Below the pieces are notes generated by a model. The model searched no databases, was not told the DNA's origin, and saw only the letters and a program-made list of their open reading frames with translations. From the NCBI GenBank assembly GCA_026874595.1, contig CM049307.1, positions 25,766,362 through 25,830,361 of the forward strand: a stretch of DNA of 64,000 nt. Reading direction: 5' to 3'. This DNA is from Sipunculus nudus (taxonomy: Eukaryota > Annelida > Sipuncula > Golfingiida > Sipunculidae). The number at the start of each line of letters is the position of its first letter. The first letter of the stretch is position 1. The position numbers and the translations under genes were made by a program. Of the stretch, positions 1-61,795 are shown piece after piece.

Positions 1-964
1 CGATGAGGAAAAACAAACAGCGCTCACGCCACCTGATAGCCATAAAATAAACTTAAAAAAACAAGGTTTTTCAATCTCTTCTGGGTGTTTTTTCTTTCAT
101 GTTTTTTCTCTTTATTTTTATAATTGTCGCGTGTGCTAGACTAAGATCTTGCTTCTGGTCAACCGGTCTTGTTATAGTAAACAGACAAAGGTGCACTGTG
201 TTTTCTCACACACAGAACCATAATAACGTATACAAAACCGGTAAACAGGAGATAGTAAACCCGTGTATCGGCATTGATTTGCTGAACAACTTTCGTATTC
301 AGCCAAAATGATTTAATAACGTGAGACAAAACACATATAATTACAAAAGAATATGAACACTGAGTGTCAATATAGAGGTGTCTGTAATACAGAGATGCCC
401 GTAAGGAGAGGTTTCTGATTCATATATTATGAACGAAGTGCTTGATCCTTTCAGTTGAACTTCGTGCCGTTTACTGTGCGTTATGTCATAAATCTTGTTC
501 TTATACAGATCAATTTTGGAATATAAGAAACCTACCCAACATATATCCATTCTCAATTACTTATAATCAGGCTATTTGTTAGCTGTACCTCTTGTCCGGA
601 CCCTTCCTTCTCCAAAAGGTAGTTTCAATTTGGCAAAGGCAATATTTTTTCTTTTTAATATTATGACAGGCTCACTATTATAACATCATACACTGCTAAC
701 AGAATTTAATTACCTATTTAAAAATGAAAGTTCTGTATATGACTGGCAGACAACGATTTGATAAATTTCATTTTCTTGAAATATTTCCGAAACCTAGACA
801 CAAAGAAACAATGATAAATCGAATAGCATTTAAATTTAAAGTATAAATAAATAAATAAATAAATACATAAGTAAACATTTATATATTTTTTTCCTTTTCA
901 ACGGTGTTCCGACGGTTTGCAAGGTGAAGATGTTGTGTGGTTAGGGTACGAACACGCATTATTT

Positions 965-1007
<43 letters not shown>

Positions 1008-1066
1008 CTTATACATATATCATTGGCCTTTTGTGTATTCGATGAATCAGATGCGTAAGATTAATT

Positions 1067-1294
1067 ATGTCGTACGTACGAGATAATATGTCGTACGTAC
1101 GAGATAGTATGTCGTTCGTACGAGATAGTATGTCGTACGTACGAGAAAATATGTCGTACGTACGAGATATTATGTCGTACGTACGAAATGATATGTCAAC
1201 GTACGAGATACTATGTCGTACGTAAGAGAAAGTATGTCGTACGTACGAGATAGTATGTCCTACGTACGAGATAGTATGTCGTACTTACGAGATA
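1067..1294. repeat. 21-bp tandem array with palindromic core
   Basis: About eleven head-to-tail copies of a 21-bp unit, atgtcgtacgtacgagatag plus one base. Each unit holds the self-complementary core cgtacgtacg; some units carry single substitutions and one is shortened (gtcaacgtacgag). The array stops about 25 bp before the acceptor-like ttattaccag that precedes the vigilin fragment. No function can be inferred. Confidence 0.9.
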
Positions 1295-1319
1295 AATAAT
1301 TTATTATTCTTATTACCAG

Positions 1320-1570
1320 GTGGCAGCAATACGCTTCCGTACGTATCAACGTTCCCTACCATCTGTACAGCGGGATGAAATCACAGTCGCTGGCGAAAAG
1401 GATGGCGTGCATCAGGCAGTGGCTGCCATAAATAAAATCTACGAAGAAAAGAAACGTAAATGCCAGACCCTCTCTGTGGGGGTCCGTAAGACAAGCACAA
1501 GCACGGGATCGGACCTAGCCATGACAACCCGATTCAGCAGGCTATGATAATTGGGCTGGTTAGCCTACTA
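1320..1570 (+). pseudogene. HDLBP-like: Vigilin-like KH-domain fragment 1
   Basis: Translation from 1320 gives EITVAGEKDGVHQAVAAINK followed by IYEEKKRKC, a signature of vigilin (HDLBP), a multi-KH RNA-binding protein. A pyrimidine-rich acceptor (tattaccag) lies immediately upstream, so this looks like an exon with retained intron sequence rather than a processed copy. Around 1492 the frame slips: the vigilin motif continues in another frame as KHKHGIGPS, where vigilin has a KH GxxG approach. It then fades into the SINE region. The rest of the gene is absent, so this is a relic. Confidence 0.75.
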
Positions 1571-1586
1571 GATCGTGATAAAAGTT

Positions 1587-1712
1587 GTTACGAAGACAAA
1601 TTTTTCAGAGGAAAATACTAGGCCGATCCGGGATTCGAACCCATGTCGGTGGCGCACATGTCCGGCGTTCTGACCGCTTCGCTAGACCAGTTCGGTCCGC
1701 TTTTATGTCACC
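1587..1712 (-). mobile_element. tRNA-derived SINE, copy 1
   Basis: Read on the minus strand, the head has a pol III A-box-like tagcgaagcggt followed by a B box ggttcgaatcc, at tRNA-like spacing. The minus-strand 3' part reads into aaatttgtcttcgtaac. It is nearly identical to 1841-1986, which establishes it as a repeat unit. Degenerate cloverleaf pairing argues for a SINE, not a functional tRNA. Confidence 0.75.
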
Positions 1713-1840
1713 TCGTAACCCTACCCCTCTTAAGAGCGTTCTGCTATAAGAACAAGACTAATTATTCCAGGAGTCACACTTTGGTGAGCTTCATCTCTCT
1801 GCCACAAAGTTTACCGTCACGTAGGACGAGCCCCCATTTT

Positions 1841-1986
1841 GTTACGAAGACAAATTTTTCAGGGGAAAATACTGGGCCGATCCGGGATTCGAACTCATGT
1901 CGGTGGCGCACACGTCCGGCGTTCCAACCGCTTCGCTACAAAAGCAAGCTTCACTAGCGAGACAGTTTGGTCCGCTTTTATGTCAC
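1841..1986 (-). mobile_element. tRNA-derived SINE, copy 2
   Basis: Same family and orientation as 1587-1712, with the same B box and flanks (gttacgaagac ... cttttatgtcacc). It carries an extra ~20 bp between the A-box side and the distal end (tacaaaagcaagcttcacta). The two copies are about 130 bp apart and probably reflect a local duplication or nested insertion. Confidence 0.72.
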
Positions 1987-3534
1987 CCAATCTATATATT
2001 AATAGCGTAAGGCGATTTTTGTAATTTTCCGTATCTCCTCCGATACCACCGTACGGATTGCCCTGATTTTCGACATGCATATGGTCCGAGTTTGTTCGAA
2101 GAGATTCCACCCATTTTTATTTGCAATATTTGCGTATTACGTGTAAAATTAATAATTTTAATATTTGCTCCCCCGCGGGTGCCTCTTTTCTTTGTGTCTT
2201 TGGGCCCGGTAACACTATAGCCAAAGAGTGTGTGATGGCGGGACAGAGTTTTAACTCCGGGGGCCCTATCCGGGGTTTTCGTACATTCGCGGCCACCGGC
2301 CCGTAATTATCCCCCTTGGTGATCCCTTCTCAAAAGAAAACCGCCGCGCGGGGACAGGGTCTATTGTGAACAAGGAGATCTCAAGAGGAGAATGTTCAAC
2401 AGGGGGAACTTTGAAAGAATCATAATTACCCGAATGGTATTTCAGGGGCGGAGAAAGGTTAGAGGGAGGGGAGAGGGCTTTAATCAGATAGGGATCCAGA
2501 AAATCGGGAAGGGTTGGGGGGGGGGGGGGGTTCGGGTTGGGGGTGGTGGGAGGTGGAGTTGATGATTAGGCCTACATTGATCCCCCCCCCCTTTTGCTAA
2601 AACGTGGGGGAGGGAATTGATATATATCCCCTTACCCCTTTATTGTCGCCACCGGCAATATGTATCACCACTGCGACAAATTTCCCGTCATAAAAACAGC
2701 GGTATTTTACTAACCAAATTCACGTCATCTGAGAGCGTTATATCAGCCTTCCAAACGTTTACTAATGATGTCTGCAACCAAGTTGATATCATTTGATAGC
2801 ACTACATCACTCCAGTCACTCCCTTGACTACGCTCCTGTAGAGAATGCATTGATTGTCTCGCTGGAAACATTGGTTCAGGAGGGGTCTTTGGGAATGCGT
2901 GATATTAAAAAAAATATACAACCATTAAATATACTTCATACTACAATGCTTCCGCGAACTTCTGCGCAGCAGGATTGCCCGACCATGTGAGTGCTCAGGT
3001 TTTGTGCGTAATAAAGGGAATGCAATTATCGAGAAAACGTCTCAGCGCTACTGTACTATACCATGCAAGATAACGGGTTTCTTTGCTGGCGGATTTACGG
3101 GCTCGGAGGGCAACTTTGAATAGCGATGTTCAACATAATATATTTTTATATAAAACTTATTTCATTTATCATATAAACATCTCCGTAAATTTCTCCGGCT
3201 AATATCTTGGCTTCAGTAAGATTTTTACGCATAACACCCTACATAGAATGGATCTGTTTGTTAATATATAGATAACACCGTACGGATAGCCGTGATTTTC
3301 GATATCAATATGACATTCTACCATTCGTACCGGAACGTATTCGTCCAAGTCATCCAGACTCAGACACAAGGTCAACTCAAGGACAGAACACTTACACCAA
3401 ATGTCGTCTTCGAAAAGATCTTATAAGGGTAACATTGTCCAACCAAGACATTCAACTATGAAAGACTATTTGACATCAGAACTAACTGCTCGCCCGAAAC
3501 CGTGCGTAGCACGGGTAATTGCTAGTAACAAAGT

Positions 3535-4055
3535 AATATCGAGAAATGTATCGCAATGTTCTTCCATCATGTTGCATTCATATTGTGTTAAACAGCCCAT
3601 TATCTTAATATTATGCTACGAATGAAGAATTAACACAGGAGAATACATGTGAACTCACAACCCAAATTGAAACTCCATCTCTATGTTAACGAGTCATTTC
3701 CTGTATCGCGTTCAAGTTGGCTGCGTCCAGTAACCCGTGTGAGCCATGCCTGTTTCATGTGGTCAGAAATTCAACACACATGTGGAGGGTTTTACCAATA
3801 TGCTGAGCTGAAACGGAACCTTTCTCGCTCATGTTTGGTGTTGTTATAGAAAGTATACTAACATGCTAACGATTAGCCTGGTTTATGTCAATTGACAGTG
3901 TACCTGTAGGCCATGAGCCTACATACATGAGCCTACATAAAAAAATGACGAAAATATATGAATTCTCATGGGGCCTTCTTCAGACGTAGATGTAAAGGTA
4001 CCTGACAACCAGTAATCTTTTCGTAATGTCAGAGGGCCGACATGACGCTAGATTG
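3535..4055 (+). repeat. Dispersed repeat, also at 55160-55605
   Basis: This stretch aligns with 55160-55605. Shared landmarks are ttgcattcata, tgagctcacaacccaaa (here tgaactc), gtcatttcctgtat, gcgtcc-gtaacccgtg, ctcgctcatg, atgctaacgatt and the end tgtcagaggg...atgacgctag. The distant copy interrupts a P-element relic, so the family is mobile or was mobilised. In this copy the end abuts the vigilin fragment directly. No coding frame of note. Confidence 0.7.
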
Positions 4056-4437
4056 GACCCAAATGGTTCCAACTTGAGCGAGATCCAGGGAGCGACAGGC
4101 GTGTCAGTTGAGATGCCGCCACTAGACAGTAACTCCGAAACCATCACCCTGCGTAGAGAACCGGACAAGATTGGTCCAGCACTAATCATGGTGTACGCTA
4201 AGGCTAACAGCGTGGTCATCCAGGAGGTCAAGGCCCCAGCGTGGCTCCATCAATTCATCATCGAACGCAACGGTTCCACCATCCGACAGATCACCTAGGA
4301 CCTGCCCAAGGTGCATGTTGAATTCACTGATAACGAAGACAAGATCACCATTAAAGGCCCTCTGAGGAAGTTGGACAGACCCAGAGAGCTCTGGATGAAA
4401 TCACAAAGGACCTGCTGTCAAGAATGGACATGTGGAA
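4048..4437 (+). pseudogene. HDLBP-like: Vigilin-like KH-domain fragment 2
   Basis: The translation shows two consecutive vigilin KH segments: TGVSVEMPPLDSNSETITLR, then APAWLHQFIIERNGSTIRQI and DLPKVHVEFTDNEDKITIKG. Three lesions are visible: an extra base near 4060 (gga ccc aaa t gg), an in-frame TAG at 4297-4299, and a frame slip near 4365, after which EEVGQTQRALDEITKDLL continues the family pattern. Its first residues overlap the end of fragment 1, so the two may come from different vigilin copies. The left edge coincides with a dispersed repeat. Confidence 0.8.
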
Positions 4438-8054: not shown

Positions 8055-9706
8055 TTAGTCCATCAGGTGGGCTATCATCATCTCTCTCAGTTTCCTGCGA
8101 AATATTTTTCCGGATGGTGCCCTTGGGAAATCCTTTAATGGCACGACCCATTTCGGCATCATGGTGTTCCAAGGGGCCCTGCTAATAAACCGCTCAGCTA
8201 ACCAATCAAGAACTTCATCAGAAGTCATGGTGGAATCTTCAATATGACGCATGCGCAAATCTCTTCCCCGCGTCTTTCGTCCGGAACACCAATGACTTGT
8301 ACCTGTTTAACTTTTGTATGTTTCAAAATGATCTCCTCCAGGTAACTCGGGCATATTTTATTGCCTTCACGATTTATAATATCAGCCTTTCTGTTGATAA
8401 TCTTGATTTGTCCATCTATATTCATTAAGGCAATATCATCAGTAGAATACCAGCCATCGTCTGTCAAGGATTGCACCGCGCCGTCCTCGCGTAGATACCC
8501 TCGTGACAGAAATGGCGTCCGGACAAGCAGTTCGCCTTTTTCCCCGACGGGAACTACGTCACCGCTATCATTTATTATTTTAACTTCGCAGTATTGACAC
8601 GCTGGTCCGATGAAGCCCTCTTCTACATTTGTGTTGGTTGTGAAGGCAATATTGCCTGTTTCTGTGGTGCCGTAAATATTGATCAAACGCAAGCCAGGCA
8701 ACACTCGACTGAGTACTTTCGCGTTGGATTCGTTCAAGATCTGTCCAGAGAACAGGCACACCCTTAAATACTTCAATGTGATGTGTAGTCTGACAGGATT
8801 CTGAATGATGTCGAAGATTGAACTCCCAAACAGCTGAGCAACCGTGCAGCCCTCCTTTTCTATGACGTCACAGATAGCAACACCTGGATCAGACACTGGT
8901 AGCTGCGCTAACACGGACTTCAAACCCGACACCAGCATTAATCCCACCCCGCAGATGTAAGAAAAAATATGACCAATGAATGTATTGCAATAATGCACGT
9001 CTTTATTGGTCAAAGTTGTCACGTTAGCCAAGATGGCCGCATTGTTTATCAGGTTTAGGTGATTTATGATAACTCCTTTGGGACGTCCTGTACTTCCAGT
9101 TGTATAAAACACTGCGGCATCCCAGTCTGCATTAATGTCACTTTCTCTTTCTGACACTTCAACCTTTTCACCAACAGTTATTCCACCCAACAGTTCGTTC
9201 TTAAACATAACCCTGTTGTGGGTTTTCTTGAGGACTACGTGTGCCCCATATATAACAACGAACATACTTCTTGGGAGCTGTGATAAGATTTCATCTATTT
9301 CAGTTGTGCCTACGTAACCATGCTGAAACATCACACCCTTGCATTTAGACGAGATTACGGAACCCACTAAGTCCTGCATGTTCCGGAGTCCAAATGGAGG
9401 AAAGGCTGCAACGGCGCCAGTCCTCATAATTGCAAGTGAGAGAAGGAGAAAATCTATGCTGTTCTCTCCCACAAGAGCAATCCTGTCCCCTCTCTCAAGA
9501 TCCGGGGCTTCTCTCAGAAGTCCTGTTGCTACATTCAGCGACTCGTGATAAAGGTCAGAAAAGGTCACAGCCTTTCTTTGAATACCGCCAGAAATCACCA
9601 CTGCTGCCTCTTTGTCAGGGTTGTCTCTGTACCTCTGGTTAAGAAGATCGGGGATGGTGGTTCGTATCGGTGGGTCAGGAGGTGCACTGAAACTGGAACT
9701 TTTCAT
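8055..9706 (-). pseudogene. Acyl-CoA synthetase copy A, broken by a one-base deletion
   Basis: Paralogue of the gene at 38212-39864 and in the same orientation. The main frame (8225-9706, 493 codons) contains YTTGSTGRPKG, YGTTETG, GWYSTDD and the hinge motif. It then runs into VILKIPP and stops, because one base present in copy B (38400) is missing between 8242 and 8243. The remaining C-terminal part, including PSGKIFRRKL with the catalytic-type lysine, continues in another frame at 8055-8258. Roughly 37 of about 550 residues differ between the copies by eye, scattered along the protein. Truncation before the C-terminal subdomain should abolish thioester-forming activity. A sequencing error is the alternative explanation. 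Confidence 0.85.
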
Positions 9707-38211: not shown

Positions 38212-39864
38212 TTAGTCCATCAGGTGGGCTATCATCATCTCTCTCAGTTTTCTGCGAGATACTTTTCCTGATGGTGCCCTTGGGAAATCCTCTAATGGCA
38301 CAACCCATTTCGGCATCATGGTGTTCCAAGGGGCCCTGCTAATAAACCGCTCAGCTAACCAATCAAGAACTTCATCAGAAGTCATGGTGGAATCTTCAAG
38401 TATGACGCATGCGCAAATCTCTTCCCCGAGTCTTTCGTCCGGAACACCAATGACTTGTACCTGTTTAACTTTTGGATGTTTCAAAATGATCTCCTCCAGG
38501 TAACTCGGGCATATTTTATTGCCTTCACGATTTATAATATCAGCCTTTCTGTTGATAATCTTGATTTGTCCATCTATATTCCTTAAGGCAATATCATCAG
38601 TAGAATACCAGCCATCGTCTGTCAAGGATTGCACCGCGCCGTCCTCGCGTAGATACCCTCGTGACAGAAATGGCGTCCGGACAAGCAGTTTGCCTTTTTC
38701 CCCGACGGGAACTACGTCACCGCTATCATTTATTATTTTAACTTCGCAGTATTGACACGCTGGTCCGATGAAGCCCTCTTCTACATTCGTGTTGGTTGTT
38801 AAGGCAATACTGCCTGTTTCTGTGGTGCCGTACACATTGATCAATCGCAGGCCAGGCAACACTCGACTGAGTACTTTCGCGTTGGATTCGTTCAAGAACT
38901 GTCCAGAGAACAGGCACACCCTTAAAGACTTCGATTTGATGTGTGCTCTGACAGTGTTCTGAAGAATGTCGTAGATTGAACTCCCAAATAGCAGAGCAAC
39001 CGTGCAGCCCTCCTTTTCTATAACGTCACAGATAGCAACACCTGGATCAGACACTGGTAGCTGCGCTAACACGATCTTCAAACCCGACACCAACATTATT
39101 CCCACCCCGCAGACGTAAGAAAGAACATGGCCAATGAATGTATTGCAATAATGCACATCTTTATTGGTCGAAGTTGTCACGTTAGCCAAGATGGCCGCAT
39201 TGTTTATCAGGTATAGGTGATTTATGATAACTCCTTTGGGACGTCCTGTACTTCCAGTTGTATAAAACACTGCGGCATCCCAGTCTGCATTTATGTCACT
39301 TTCTCTTTCTGACACTTCAACCTTTTCACCAACAGTTATTCCACCCAACAGATCGTTCTTAAACAAAACCCTGTTGTGGGTTTTCTTGAGGATTACGTCT
39401 GCCCCATATATAACAACGAACATACTTCTTGGGAGCTGTGATAAGATTTCATCTATTTCACTTGTGCTTACGTAACCATGCTGAAACATCACACCCTTGC
39501 ATTTAGACGAGGTTACGGAACCCACTAAGTCCTGCATGTTTCGGAGTCCAAATGGAGGAAAAGCTGCAACGGCGCCAGTCCTCATAATTGCAAGTGAGAG
39601 AAGGAGCAAATCTATGCTGTTCTCTCCCACAAGAGCAATCCTGTCCCCTCTCTCAAGATCCGGGGCTTCTCTCAGAAGTCCTGTTGCAACATTCAGCGAC
39701 TCGTGATAAAGGTCAGAAAAGGTCACAGCCTTTCTTTGAATACCGCCAGAAATCACCACTGCTGCCTCTTTGTCAGGGTTGTCTCGGTACCTCTGGTTAA
39801 GAAGATTCGGGATGGTAGTTCGTATCGGTGGGACAGGAGGTGCATTGAAACTGGAACTTTTCAT
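38212..39864 (-). CDS. Acyl-CoA synthetase / AMP-binding enzyme (ACSF2-like), intact copy B
   Basis: Single uninterrupted 550-codon frame. Expected role from the ANL superfamily: ATP-dependent activation of a carboxylic acid to acyl-AMP, then transfer to CoA. Core motifs appear in the normal order: P-loop YTTGSTGRPKG at residues 201-211, YGTTETG at 345-351, GWYSTDD at 418-424 (TDD where TGD is usual), hinge region NRKADIINREGNKICP at 438-453, and PSGKVSRRKL near residue 535 with the C-terminal lysine. Length fits medium-chain/ACSF2-type enzymes. No signal peptide or membrane segment is obvious, and the specific substrate cannot be read from sequence. There is no intron, and no poly-A tract follows the stop, so a retrocopy is neither shown nor excluded. 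Residue 392 is Lys in GEKGKL, where copy A keeps the family-typical GEKGEL. The start is the first Met of a frame whose paralogue begins identically. Confidence 0.88.
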   Translation of the reverse strand: MKSSSFNAPPVPPIRTTIPNLLNQRYRDNPDKEAAVVISGGIQRKAVTFSDLYHESLNVATGLLREAPDLERGDRIALVGENSIDLLLLSLAIMRTGAVAAFPPFGLRNMQDLVGSVTSSKCKGVMFQHGYVSTSEIDEILSQLPRSMFVVIYGADVILKKTHNRVLFKNDLLGGITVGEKVEVSERESDINADWDAAVFYTTGSTGRPKGVIINHLYLINNAAILANVTTSTNKDVHYCNTFIGHVLSYVCGVGIMLVSGLKIVLAQLPVSDPGVAICDVIEKEGCTVALLFGSSIYDILQNTVRAHIKSKSLRVCLFSGQFLNESNAKVLSRVLPGLRLINVYGTTETGSIALTTNTNVEEGFIGPACQYCEVKIINDSGDVVPVGEKGKLLVRTPFLSRGYLREDGAVQSLTDDGWYSTDDIALRNIDGQIKIINRKADIINREGNKICPSYLEEIILKHPKVKQVQVIGVPDERLGEEICACVILEDSTMTSDEVLDWLAERFISRAPWNTMMPKWVVPLEDFPRAPSGKVSRRKLREMMIAHLMD

Positions 39865-43988: not shown

Positions 43989-44056
43989 GTATGAAATGTT
44001 AACAGTATAAAAATCCCATTTTCATTGTAATGATATCTGCTTATATTACATTAATG

Positions 44057-44118
<62 letters not shown>

Positions 44119-44129
44119 GTATATTACAG

Positions 44130-46090
44130 TATATTACAGTAATGTCTTCCCGACAACTTACTGCTAAGCTTTTACCAAAGCAGTCAGCAGCTGCTACCAG
44201 AACAGCATCAAGTTTGACTGCTAAGCTTTAACCAAAGCAGTCACCAGCTACCACCAGGACAGCACCAAGCGTGACTGCTAAGTTTATACCAAAGCAGTTA
44301 CCAGCTCCTACCAGGACAGCACCAATTTTGACTGCTAAACTTTTACCAAAGCAGTCACTAGCTACTACTAGGACAGCACAAAGGGTGACTGCTAAGTTTA
44401 TACCAAAACAGTCACCAGCTACTACCAAGACAGCACCAAGCGTGACTGCTAAGTTCATACCAAAGCAGTCACCAGCTATTACCAGGACAGCACCAAGCGT
44501 GACTGCTAAGTTTATACCAAAGCAGTCACCAGCTACTACCAAGACAGCACCAAGCGTGACTGCTCAGTTTATACCAAAGCAGTCACCAGCTACCACCAGG
44601 ACAGCACAAAGGGTGACTGCTAAGTTTATACCAAAGCAGTCACCTGCTACTACCAAGACAGCACCAAGCGTGACTGCTAAGTTTATACCAAAGCAGTCAC
44701 CAGCTACTAGCAGGACAGCACCAATTTTGACTGCTAAACTTTTACCAAAGCAGTCACTAGCTACTACCAGGACAGCACAAAGGGTGACTGCTTAGTTTAT
44801 ACCAAAGCAGTCACCAGCTACTACCAAGACAGCACAAAGGGTGACTGCTACGTTTATACCAAAGCAGTCACCAGCTACTACCAAGACAGCACCAAGCGTG
44901 ACTGCTAAGTTTATACCAAAGCAGTCACCAGCTACCACCAGGACAGCACAAAGGGTGACTGCTAAGTTTATACCAAAGCAGTCACCAGCTACTACCAAGA
45001 CAGCACCAAGCGTGACTGCTAAGTTTATACCAAAGCAGTCACCAGCTACCACCAGGACAGCACCAAGTGTGACTGCTAAGCTTTCGCCGAAGCAGTCACC
45101 AGCTATTACCAAGACAGCACCAAGCGTGACTGCTAAGTTTATACCAAAGCAGTCACCAGCTACCACCAGGACAGCACCAAGTGTGACTGCTACGCTTTCA
45201 CCAAAGCAGTCACCAGCTACTACCAAGAAAGCACAAAGGGTGACTGCTAAGTTTATACCAAAGCAGTCACCAGCTACCACCAGGACAGCACAAGTGTGAC
45301 TGCTAAGCTTTCACCAAAGCAGTCACCAGCTACTACCAAGACAGCACCAAGCGTGACTGCTAAGTTTATACCAAAGCAGTCACCAGCTACCACCAGGACC
45401 GCACCAAGTTTGACTGCTAAGCTTTCACCAAAGCAGTCACCAGCCAATACCAAGACAGCACCAAGCGTGACTGCTAAGTTTATACCAAAGCAGTCATCAG
45501 CTACCACCAGGACAGCACCAAGCGTGACTGCTAAGCTTTCACCAAAGCAGTCACCAGCTACTACCAGGACAGCACCGAGTGTGACTGCTAAGCTTTTACC
45601 AAAGCAGTCACCAGCTACCACCAGGACAGCACCAAGCGTGACTGCTAGGTTTTTACCAAAGCAGTCACCAGCTACTACCAAGACAGCACCAAGCGTGACT
45701 GCTAAGTTTATACCAAAGCTGTCACCAGCTACCACCAGGACAGCACCAAGTGTGACTGCTAATCTTTCACCAAAGCAGTCACCAGCTACTACTTAGACAG
45801 CACCAAGCGTGACTGCTAAGCTTTCACCAAAGCAGTCACCAGCTACTACCAGGACAGCACCAATTTTGACTGCTAAACTTTTACCAAAGCAGTCACTGGC
45901 TACTACCAGGACAGCACAAAGGGTGACTGCTTAGCTTTTACCAAAGCAGTCACCAGCTACCAACAGGACAGCACCAAGCGTGACTGCTATGTTTTTACCA
46001 AAGCGGTCACCAGCTGCTACCAGAACAGCACAGAATGTTACTGCTAAGCTTTACCAAAGCAGTCACCAGCTACTACCAAGGCAGAACAGA
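44130..46090 (+). pseudogene. 57-bp coding minisatellite (19-residue repeats)
   Basis: About 34 copies of a 57-bp unit translating as VTAKFIPKQSPATTRTAPS. Units alternate between a gtttatacc and an agctttcacc version, giving a 114-bp higher-order period in part of the array. The frame in phase with the SGNH exon starts YITVMSSRQLTAKLLPKQ. It is broken by TAA at 44229, TAG at 44793, a one-base loss near 45290 and TAG at 45794. The repeat is basic and Thr/Pro/Ser-rich, like an extended low-complexity tail. The antisense strand is also open for long stretches (44228-44542, 44792-45280, 45274-45735) with repeats of VLVVAGDCFGINLAVTLGA. Confidence 0.75.
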
Positions 46091-46249: not shown

Positions 46250-48362
46250 TGAGAAGGTTGAGTCACATCAATACAGTACTATCACATTCACGTGTAAGCA
46301 TGCTGGCAGTATCAAACCTCGGGAAACTGGCGCTCGACCGACTCAGTCCTACCTGGCTTGTAATTGTCTAGTTTCAGTAAATGTTAATCTTCAAAAAACT
46401 TCAGGTATGTTTAAAGTCACTAAAATAATGGACCAGCATAATCATCCAAATACTTAAAATATGTATCCAGATCAGCGCAAGTTGAACTCAAATCAAATAG
46501 ATTTAGTTAATGACATGATTAATTATGAAGAAGGGACCGGACAATTACAAAATTTTATAAAGGATAAAATTGGAAAATCTGTGTTGGCCGAAGATATACA
46601 CAACATCAGGCTAAACAAGAGAAAACAGACGTCAGGGGATAAAACTAAAGAGCAATTATTAATTGATAAAATAACTTCCATTAGCAACAATGATTCAGAG
46701 TGTAAATTACATATAGATAGTGATAAGGAAGGAACATTGAGTGTTTTAATGATCCAGTCAGGGCCCATGAAAGAGTTCTATAATAAATATCCGGAAGTAC
46801 TTTTTGTAGACGGTAAATGTAGAGGCTTATTCATTATATACAATATTATGTCAAGATAACAATGGTAGGGGAAAACCTGTTGATTATTTATTTGTGAGAG
46901 ATGAAGCGAAGCAAACATTTACACAGGCTAACCAAATCTATCCCAAATATAACTCAGAACTTTTGGATTAAGCAAAAATAATAATAATAGATAAAGATTT
47001 GACGAAAATGGCAGTCCTTCGAAAATTCTTTTCCAAAGCAAAACTTTTGTTATGTACATTCCATGTTTTGAAATATCTGAAACAAGTGGTTAGTGATTTA
47101 GTTATTTCAAAACAGATTAAAACTGAAATAATGACTCTAGAACAAATACTAGTCTATGCAAAATCAGCCGCTCAATTTGATGATTTCTTGCCGCAGCTTA
47201 ACATGAGAGCACCAGAAGATTTTGTAAATTATTTCCAGCAAAATTGGGTTAATTGTAAGCATATATGGGCACATTATTTAAGAAGGGATTTAGAAACGCT
47301 TGGTTATAACACAAACAACCGCATAGAAAGCCATAATAAAAAATTTAAAATGTTCATTAAATCGCATTTTCATTTAGATGAAGCAGTTCAGGGACTTATA
47401 AGTTGCATAAAGTCAATGGAAAACTATGTTGATAAAGTGAATTTGATGCCATTAAAACGTGTTTAGATACAAGAAAAGTAGACCATTTACATATAGAAAT
47501 AGCTCGTGTGCACCAAACAGGCAATTCTTTTCATGAATCAGGAATTGGATTAATTGCAACAACATAAAGGATCAGTAAATAAAATAGATAATGAATTTAA
47601 GGTAACAGATAAAAGCAATCTTACTTGCAAGGTTTATGAAGCTGCCAATCTCTGCACTTGTAGATTTTGGTGCCAATATCGATTACCTTGTCAGCATATT
47701 TTCAAAGTAATGAGACAAAATAACATGACAGAACTCATTCCAAAACTTATACCAGAGAGAGGGCGAAAACACAATTCTAACCTAGAAACATATCATAAAT
47801 AAGACCCGCCAATTTTTAATTCAGAGTTTGAAAATTTTAACGAAATCAAAAAACCCAATAAAAAGAGAAAATTCTTAGGGCAAAATGAAAAATTTTCAAA
47901 GCATTAAAAAAATAACTAAAGACATAGCTTCATTCTAATCAACATGTGGTGAAAAAGATTTAGCCTCAAAATTAAAAACATTAGAAACACTTTTGCATGA
48001 TTTGCAACTGAATAAAAATGTTTTTACGACTTAAGAGAAACCGAAAGAAGTGTACAGATCAGAAACTATAAAAAATCATGGGGATACCTTGACAGATATG
48101 GATCATAACTGCTTATCTTCACCGATGAAGTGTGAATTAAATGAGGAATATATAGACGAACTTCCAGACTGAACATACAATAACAGACAGTGAAGGAATA
48201 TCCCAAGACCAGTTAGAAAACATTAAAATACTTCAAGCAGGCCTTGTTCAAAATACATGCATCGATGAACTTCGTGATACTTTAACCCTTTAAAATATAA
48301 AAAAAAGCGAAGGGGTCGTCCGAAAGGAACTAAAAATCTTTTACAGTATTTTCATGGAAGGA
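46250..48362 (+). pseudogene. MULE-type transposase with SWIM zinc finger and AT-hook (ZSWIM-like), decayed
   Basis: Order of pieces: an N-terminal FAR1/WRKY-like zinc finger (CKHAG ... ACNCLVSVN ... DQHNHPN, 46295-46455), YPDQRKLNSNQIDLVND, first Asp motif VLFVDGK (about 46798), second Asp motif IIIDKDLTKMAVL (46980), CTFHVLKYL, and Glu motif NNRIESHNKKFKMF (about 47320). The SWIM finger is CTCRFWCQYRLPCQHIF (47656-47706), and an AT-hook KRRGRPKGTKN is at 48305-48337. MULE transposases cut and paste DNA with a DDE triad. At least four stops or frameshifts (46456, 46857, 46969, 47464) disable it. Confidence 0.83.
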
Positions 48363-59622: not shown

Positions 59623-59732
59623 CTGTAGTCAGCACAAGGAGAGATTTATTTTTTTTTCCATTTGTACTCAATATCTGTGACGTAGCCCATTATGTGTGCT
59701 ACGTCATCGTTCTTCTCAGTGCGACGTCCGTT

Positions 59733-59907
59733 ATGGAGGATCCATGTGAAAAGAAGCCAGAACAATCCAATGAATTTGACGGTGTTATAAAGGCCACCGA
59801 AAATTTAACGTTGCAGAATAAACAGACTAATAGTCGGTTGGACACTGTCCTTGATATTTTGTGCGAACGTGGCATAGATCTTGCAGGATTAACAGCACAG
59901 ACCAGAT
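59733..59907 (+). pseudogene. Ngaro gag-like N-terminal fragment
   Basis: It starts MEDPCEKKPEQSNEFDGVIK and continues to LDILCERGIDLAGLTAQTR before a stop. The ATG lies just after A1, as expected for the first ORF of the element. It is probably an N-terminal coiled segment of the structural protein. The frame ends near the presumed deletion junction (about 59890-59907). Confidence 0.55.
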
Positions 59908-60358
59908 AACATTTGAGTCTGACGGGTCGATGTCTATTGTATTCCATGGGATCAAAAACGACACAAGTAGGTCAGTTTTCAGGGTGATAGTACAACCGTC
60001 TAAGATACCCCTGCTGAACCCAGTTAAAACGTTAGCTGATTATTTAGCCCGAACTGCTGCTTTCAGGAAGGTTGGGGGTTCCCCTGTTTTCATTTCATTA
60101 AAGGCACCATACGATGGCCTGTCTGCTGCCTCTATTGCTGGTATTCTTGACGACTCCATTGTCCGAGCTGGACTGTCGCGAGACCTGTTTTCCGCGAAGT
60201 CCTTCCGGCCATCGGGGGCCACCCTAGCCGTCAGTCAGAAACATGATCCCAAAACAGTCATGAAAGTGGGTCGGTGGAAGACTGATAGTGTCTTCTACGA
60301 ACATTATGTACACAGTAGAACTCCTGGATCCTTCACTGACGACATTTTGAATACTTAA
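59905..60358 (+). pseudogene. Tyrosine recombinase C-terminal catalytic part
   Basis: The frame is open to TAA at 60356-60358. Conserved parts: SIVFHGIKNDTSR (beta-sheet side), PVFISLKAPYDGLSAASIAG, the box-II region AKSFRPSGATLAV with its Arg, KVGRWKTDSVFYEHYVHS with the presumptive Tyr nucleophile. The first catalytic Arg region would lie upstream and is removed by the deletion, so recombination activity is unlikely. The open frame actually begins within gag at 59861 in a different phase. Confidence 0.8.
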
Positions 60359-60745
60359 GATGTACGTACGCATAATCATATCTGTACTTTTCTTTCTCAC
60401 TATTAATGGCATTGTAATTTGTTTAATAAATTTCATTATTATTATTATCAGTCTCCTTGTTGCTGACGTAGGTTTCCCACAAACTGTTGTCAGCACAAGG
60501 AGAGTTTATTTTTTTTCCAGTTGTACTCAATTATCTGTGACGTAGCACATTATGTGTGCTACGTCATCGTTCTTCTTAGTGCGAATTTTTTAAATGTTCT
60601 CTTGATAAGTAGTCATATCATCATGATATGGATGTTTGTATGTTGACACGTCGTACTATGAGGAACAAGGCATTGTAATTTGTTTAATAAATTTCATTAT
60701 TATTATTATCAGTCTCCTTGTTGCTGACGTAGGTTTCCCACAAAC

Positions 60746-61795
60746 CAATTTTAGGTTATTTACAGATATAATTAAATCGAATAAATAAAAAGGATATGAA
60801 CTTTCATGACAAGTGGCAAGCAGGACCGAAGGGCATCACATTTATTAGACGCATACAATTATGATCCTCTAAAACTATTAAGTTTCGATGTGTCAGTCTT
60901 TTCAGGCAGAAGTCTAGGTATATATAATGTTAAAGGCAGGGTTCAACAATCGAGCAGAAAACACCACTTGCCTGAGGACAAGTAAAAAATAAAATCTTTA
61001 TAAATACCTCACATAAAACCGGAGGTCCTTGAAATTTAGTTTGCTATTTATTTATTGATATTCTAGGTAATTTAATTACCAATTCACCAGGTATTCTCAT
61101 TCGTGTGAAATCGCTTTATGAAATCTAATCATGGGAAGATCCAAACTGTTATTAGATGCATGCTCATGAGAAATCCAAATGATTGGGTGGTGATTATATG
61201 CCATCGTTGGTAAATAATAATAAAATCCATGAAAACCCTTTTTTTCTTTTTTAATCAAAATATTATTCACAATGGATTCAAAGGCAAAAATTATATTATT
61301 GTATTGAAATTTTAAAAATAATTCGGGCGAGTCCCATTCATTTTATTCAACAAGGGCTTGTCGTCTTAAAAAAGTTGCTCTTTTTAATATCGGTAAAGGA
61401 GGTCAATTTTCCAACTAGTTCTTTACATCTATGTATGAAAGAAACTGATTGAATAAAGCTATTCCTTTATAAATAAAATAAAGCATACTTGCGTTTATAT
61501 AATATAATATACAATAATATAATATATTATATTATATATAGTCCTATATATGTATATTCATTTGTGTGAATGTTAAAAAAAAAGGGCCTTGTTTAATAGT
61601 CCGAAATGTGCTCCAACGCACCACCCCGTGCAGAGACCACGCTACGCCCCTGTGGATGGACATTACGATCCAAGGGCTGAATATAAAATCATTGTAGATC
61701 CTGTCGCAACAAATCGGTACGATAGGTCCAGGGTTCTCTGCATGCTAAAATGACACGCAAGTGCCAGCCCGTGTATTCTGTCCAAGAGAAAATGC
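60746..61795. other. Unannotated AT-rich stretch
   Basis: AT-rich DNA with a TA-rich patch at 61496-61545. No gene or repeat of known family recognised. Confidence 0.5.

Follow-up and report, generated by a model that had tools for sequence, protein, structure and literature searches.

The 64,000-nt stretch of the Sipunculus nudus genome analysed here (CM049307.1; the window, whose positions serve as coordinates throughout) carries at 59623-60744 a short element with split direct repeats, arranged in the order A1, internal stretch, B1, A2, spacer, B2, and the question that this locus raises is whether a copy that keeps both ends and lacks its reverse transcriptase (RT) belongs to a class of non-autonomous elements that spreads or is a single casualty. 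A preliminary description had taken it for a young Ngaro element and for a member of a propagating non-autonomous class. We have reached a different view, which we hold with high though not complete confidence: the element is a single copy, now decayed, from a PAT-like family of tyrosine-recombinase retrotransposons with a low copy number, and not a spreading derivative. The evidence for this comes from its anatomy, the segment that it lacks, its full-length relatives in the same genome, a deletion junction that is private to it and the substitutions that it has accumulated.

A search of the genome (1.43 Gb, 153 contigs) with the element returned at least 47 matches (the best 40 of 77 candidates were scored), including ten copies with both ends (L009-L018) that measure 4136-4209 bp. 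Two of them, L010 and L011, are not independent, since a segmental duplication covers both (98.6% over 5.4 kb including flanks). These full-length relatives have an RT, in agreement with the earlier view of the window copy as an internal-deletion derivative of a split-direct-repeat tyrosine-recombinase retrotransposon. In the numbering of L014, the window copy consists of bases 1-270 and 3352-4196, ∼3.08 kb of the full-length copies (bases 271-3351) being missing, and the same comparison confirmed the loss of RT and RNase H together with the N-terminal part of the recombinase. The gap between the two window halves amounts to 3013-3085 bp in the ten full-length copies and in L020. The deletion junction, previously located near 59890-59907, was placed at 59893/59894 (+ strand), the window copy agreeing with the full-length copies as far as AAC on its left side and again from AGCACAG onwards on its right. 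There, the full-length copies go on with gcctg on the left side and have ttttt before the right side, and because these flanking bases differ there is neither microhomology nor an inserted base at the junction. When the genome was searched with 120 bp across 59893/59894, all 31 candidate places were scored and the window copy alone spanned the junction; 18 of the others matched just the right half of the query and 12 just the left half. A propagating derivative is not supported, because the junction occurs once in the genome, an outcome that the preliminary description had itself regarded as the mark of a one-off decayed element.

The boundary bases also bear on the idea that splicing of an intron removed the segment from the transcript behind the window copy; we regard this idea as having next to no chance of being correct. 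A T-rich run stands directly before AG and looks superficially like a 3' splice site, but the segment starts with gcctg and ends with ttttt, the window copy retains the AG, and no GT-AG pair can be fitted. In addition, RT, RNase H, a methyltransferase and much of the recombinase are encoded in the segment. This intron or retrocopy reading was rejected on the boundary bases.

Furthermore, the window copy is intermediate to old for its family. With the A and B repeats summed it has 4 substitutions in 176 sites (2.3%). Of 12 further copies measured, L012, L013, L014 and L017 are free of substitutions, five show 1.1-1.7% and three 4.0-5.6%. Its private substitutions number 20 (7 in 271 plus 13 in 851 sites), more than in nine of the ten full-length copies, which have 2-8 each except L018 with 35; these counts are rough because close relatives mask each other's private changes. 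It had been called young on the strength of a complete repeat order and identical B repeats of 77 bp, the split direct repeats being taken as perfect. B1 and B2 are identical (self-match 4.8e-35) over 77 nt, but the repeat proper has 76 nt, because the 77th matching base, a C, is flank that matches by chance: in most other copies CACAAA closes the B repeat, and what follows it is already A2 or flank. A1 and A2, in turn, are only 93% identical over 103 columns (self-match 4.0e-36), with 4 substitutions in 100 aligned sites and 3 gaps. Neither self-match is due to chance, and identical B repeats on their own mislead about age.

The complete A1-ORF-B1-A2-B2 order that had been proposed was borne out by the repeat coordinates and self-matches, all features lying on the + strand except the inverted arms, to which no strand applies. 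A1 (59623-59724), the left end of the element, matches A2 and aligns at its left end with CTGTAG in most other copies. The inverted arms GACGTAGC-N11-GCTACGTC within it (59679-59705) were recognized from the sequence and a self inverted match, and their second copy lies within A2 at 60539-60565. The start of the first open frame occupies 59733-59909 and ends 5 codons beyond the deletion junction; its designation as a gag start holds for its position, but the first frame has no Pfam match above the cut-off even at full length. The C-terminal part of the tyrosine recombinase frame is then open to its stop (59894-60358) and corresponds to residues ∼468-621 of the 621-codon frame of L014, that is, 154 residues. 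This remnant retains what we take to be the FRPSGA, GRWK and Y regions and is without LRPSD, presumably the first catalytic arginine region; a Pfam search of both window frames, the gag start and the recombinase remnant, returned 0 families. B1 (60408-60483, with AATAAA at 60425-60430) is followed by A2 (60484-60584), an 84-bp spacer (60585-60668) that is conserved in the longer and in most solo copies, and B2 (60669-60744, with AATAAA at 60686-60691), which forms the right end.

In the case of the full-length relatives, all three frames are open at full length in two copies (L013 and L014), and L017 has full-length pol and recombinase frames together with a shorter first frame of 266 codons. 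The full-length frames comprise a first one of ∼300 codons in the gag position, pol with 636 codons and the recombinase with 621; in L013 and L014 pol (905-2812) and the tyrosine recombinase (YR) frame (1951-3813) overlap, and RT, RNase H, methyltransferase and recombinase all share one orientation. The RT of L014 matches Pfam RVT_1 at 7.3e-27, and its RNase H gives a weak match below the cut-off (0.03-0.04). The pol of full-length copies contains a Dam-like methyltransferase domain; neither the methyltransferase region nor the gag frame had a match in NCBIfam. The full-length recombinase frame matches XerA_Arch (8.9e-7 and 28.7 bits, far below the model cut-off of 220; residues 308-459), a PHROG integrase (2.6e-4; residues 401-609) and Pfam Phage_integrase (0.0043, below the cut-off; residues 512-609), and relative to the deletion the Phage_integrase match falls in the kept part, the PHROG match partly so and the XerA match in the lost part. 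Sequence searches of the PDB gave one match only for the recombinase frame, at 0.23, and 17 matches up to E 10 for the methyltransferase region, none of them a methyltransferase by name, the best being Pol gamma B (0.0076) over the RNase H-like start. A first structure model of the methyltransferase region, built on 8 near-identical rows, reached a pLDDT of 38 and was discarded. A search for related loci, made in viral contigs only, found none there. Among the relatives L060-L076, 14 of 17 have a downstream direct-repeat pair 239-286 bp apart, counted without a shuffled control; L065 and L067 show other patterns, L076 none, and the pair of L075 is only 30 bp.

The existence of copies with all frames open matters for the proposal that the window copy is a non-autonomous derivative mobilised in trans, its deletion having occurred in an RNA or cDNA intermediate or in a master copy and the product having been inserted by the recombinase of its relatives. 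Such a copy could move only with help, because it has only the last ∼154 recombinase residues and is without the first catalytic arginine region, and it does retain both ends and the B1-A2 junction. Both ends are likewise present in other deleted copies, namely L022 (1556 bp, with 145 joined to 2766), L027 (369 bp, with 233 joined to 4058) and, less cleanly, L037. Template switching usually uses some microhomology, and the junctions of L022 and L027 overlap by 10 and 5-7 bp, respectively, but the window junction has none. Moreover, no second copy shares the window junction, and that of L022 is private too, being spanned by one of 30 candidates. Taken together, we think this proposal unlikely, though it is the alternative that we would discard least readily, and nothing shows spread of the window copy after the deletion. 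The break points differ among all the derivatives (L019, L022, L023, L027 and L037), L019 having two internal deletions and L023 lacking ∼2122-2693, with a left end that was not established. In L037 (C14:8657500-8662400, 1436-4249) A1 is joined directly to B1 and followed by A2, ∼2.4 kb of other sequence and a partial spacer-B2; its split repeats contain no genes, and sequence has been inserted into the spacer or ahead of it. Two further arrangements were observed. In L020 (C14:2351905-2357168) the A end and the spacer-B2 end enclose an interior (86-3863, 99.66% identical to L014) in inverted orientation, which may have arisen by recombination, or by template switching, at inverted sites, and L038 and L039 (C10, ∼474 kb apart) form a 6.8-kb duplication of 99.85% identity with the same truncated spacer-B2 end.

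Several observations weigh against regarding the window copy as a single decayed element. B1 equals B2, and the 154-residue remnant and the gag start are free of stops, as in a younger copy. A1, B1-A2 and B2 are all present, so that the anatomy is compatible with mobility in trans. Finally, the genome searches skip very common words, so a copy could be missed.

Solo A-spacer-B units are common in this genome and mostly ∼262 bp long; 8 were first collected (L028-L035). They could form an active sub-family, a lineage of short elements that transposes by itself, a possibility also raised for SIRE; their number and the grouping of L034 with L041 would fit this. However, in a tree built from 11 solos and the tails of 16 longer copies (27 tails in all, ∼262 sites, no support test; L035, L044 and L045, partial or ill-defined, were excluded) the solos do not form one clade, as apart from that pair they fall among the longer copies or near the root. 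None of the 11 is closer to another solo than to its nearest longer copy, with five ties (L030, L032, L040, L042 and L043). Such scatter is expected if each solo arose by A1 x A2 recombination, the origin suggested for the solo AB repeats of Cafeteria (PMC8547959). From their placement the solos look like scattered recombination remnants, and we consider a separate lineage very improbable.

According to the accepted model for elements with split direct repeats, reverse transcription leads to a DNA circle, which the recombinase inserts by crossover without target duplication. Joining the element ends (B2 to A1) would recreate a B-A junction, and at the B1/A2 junction (60453-60502) inverted arms, CTCCTTGTTGCTGAC and GTCAGCACAAGGAG, surround a 21-nt core; the junction was compared in the window copy, L014 and L009. 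Arms and core together are likely the tyrosine-recombinase site, a function suggested by their sequence. In our preferred explanation, that of one decayed copy, full-length members of 4.1-4.2 kb, with a frame in the gag position, an RT-RNase H-methyltransferase frame and an overlapping recombinase, bounded by A1 ... B1-A2-spacer-B2, would have inserted as circles at the palindromic B-A junction. The window copy would then have lost, or have been born without, the ∼3.08 kb in a private event that used no microhomology, a deletion after insertion being slightly favoured over one before it. The insertion-point ends rest on a by-eye comparison of 22 left and 25 right ends, in which no target duplication was seen, in agreement with circle insertion. 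A more speculative view is that the family recombinase acts in trans on circles devoid of genes and inserts them, L027, L022, L037 and the window copy each having been deleted before insertion and some solos being mini-circles cut between both B-A junctions and re-inserted, not leftovers of homologous recombination. We judge this doubtful; if true, short products would be a regular by-product of split direct repeats that never founds a lineage.

Regarding the flanks, 22 of the 25 left flanks counted have a purine at target position -2 (P 7e-5 against a background of 0.497; post hoc and uncorrected), which may hint at a weak target preference. The count leaves out L011, which belongs to the same segmental duplication as L010, and the copies without a clear left end (L020, L021, L023-L026, L036-L039 and L044-L046). 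The right flank (60745-61445, + strand) is part of another interspersed repeat, in which the window element is probably nested: positions 60746-61445 have at least 61 genome matches (the best 40 of 72 candidates were scored), the longer ones with 76-90% identity. Paralogous empty sites therefore probably exist.

Elsewhere in the window there are two paralogous AMP-binding (acyl-CoA ligase-like) genes on the - strand, at 8228-9706 and 38215-39864, the former of which matches only part of the C-terminal domain model. A tandem array with a 57-bp period extends over 44039-46047 and beyond, with 33 register positions in one family and open frames on both strands. At 46461-47466 lie fragments of a ZSWIM1/3-like protein, which we presume to be a transposase remnant.

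Finally, the family can be compared with known systems. The window copy and the ten full-length copies have the split direct repeats A1 ... B1-A2-B2 that are common to PAT-like and Ngaro elements, and their terminal repeats are direct and split, not inverted as in DIRS1-like elements. Tyrosine recombinase, RT and RNase H, as expected of PAT-like elements, are all recognizable, although the XerA and Pfam matches of the recombinase and the RNase H match lie below the cut-offs. Because a methyltransferase domain is present in pol, the family is better described as PAT-like than as Ngaro, the earlier identification, since Ngaro elements are described as devoid of this domain (PMC3266345, PMC4157794, PMC9210276); this is a label by domain content. 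The overlap of the pol and YR frames is usually missing in Ngaro (PMC3266345) and has been reported in Ngaro-like elements of Xenopus (PMC9210276). The function of the methyltransferase domain is called unknown in PMC3266345, and the fold match of this region to PCIF1/CAPAM offers a testable hint about it; our literature search on a link between this methyltransferase and PCIF1 found no mention of PCIF1. The claim of a new class of mobile element is removed, and in its place stand PAT-like full-length, deleted, inverted and solo copies in one genome, together with a measured private junction. With this set of copies one could examine whether it is host recombination or the element recombinase that gives rise to solo AB units, a question left open for SIRE.

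The closest likeness in domain content is to PAT-like elements such as the echinoderm-form Pat1 and Toc3 (PMC4157794, PMC3266345), in which RT, RNase H, methyltransferase and recombinase are all encoded in the same direction. The gag of Pat1 has a zinc finger, whereas a loose C-x-C-x-H/C pattern was absent from the gag region in all 11 copies examined and matched only elsewhere; PAT elements without this finger were found only outside Metazoa according to PMC4157794, and the host here is an animal. The Ngaro elements of zebrafish, Xenopus and Cafeteria share the A1-ORFs-B1-A2-B2 order, RT/RNase H and the tyrosine recombinase, but are described as having no methyltransferase. The description of the window copy as a rarely described class stands only in qualified form, as deletion variants and solos are in print for Cafeteria (PMC8547959) and SIRE (PMC6681497). 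For Cafeteria, AB units that occur alone at scattered genomic places have been described along with several Ngaro variants deleted for ORF1, and the internally deleted type 2b comprises several copies with ∼2-kb deletions covering ORF1 (PMC8547959). The window deletion differs in being private to one copy and in taking out, besides RT and RNase H, most of the first frame and a large part of the recombinase. In Trypanosoma cruzi, SIRE corresponds to the A2-B2 section of VIPER, and its origin and mobility have been left open (PMC6681497). The solos L028-L034 are built in the same way; here the solos look like scattered recombination remnants, and the window copy is not one of them. The window copy adds a further decayed member to a kind of element that has already been described.
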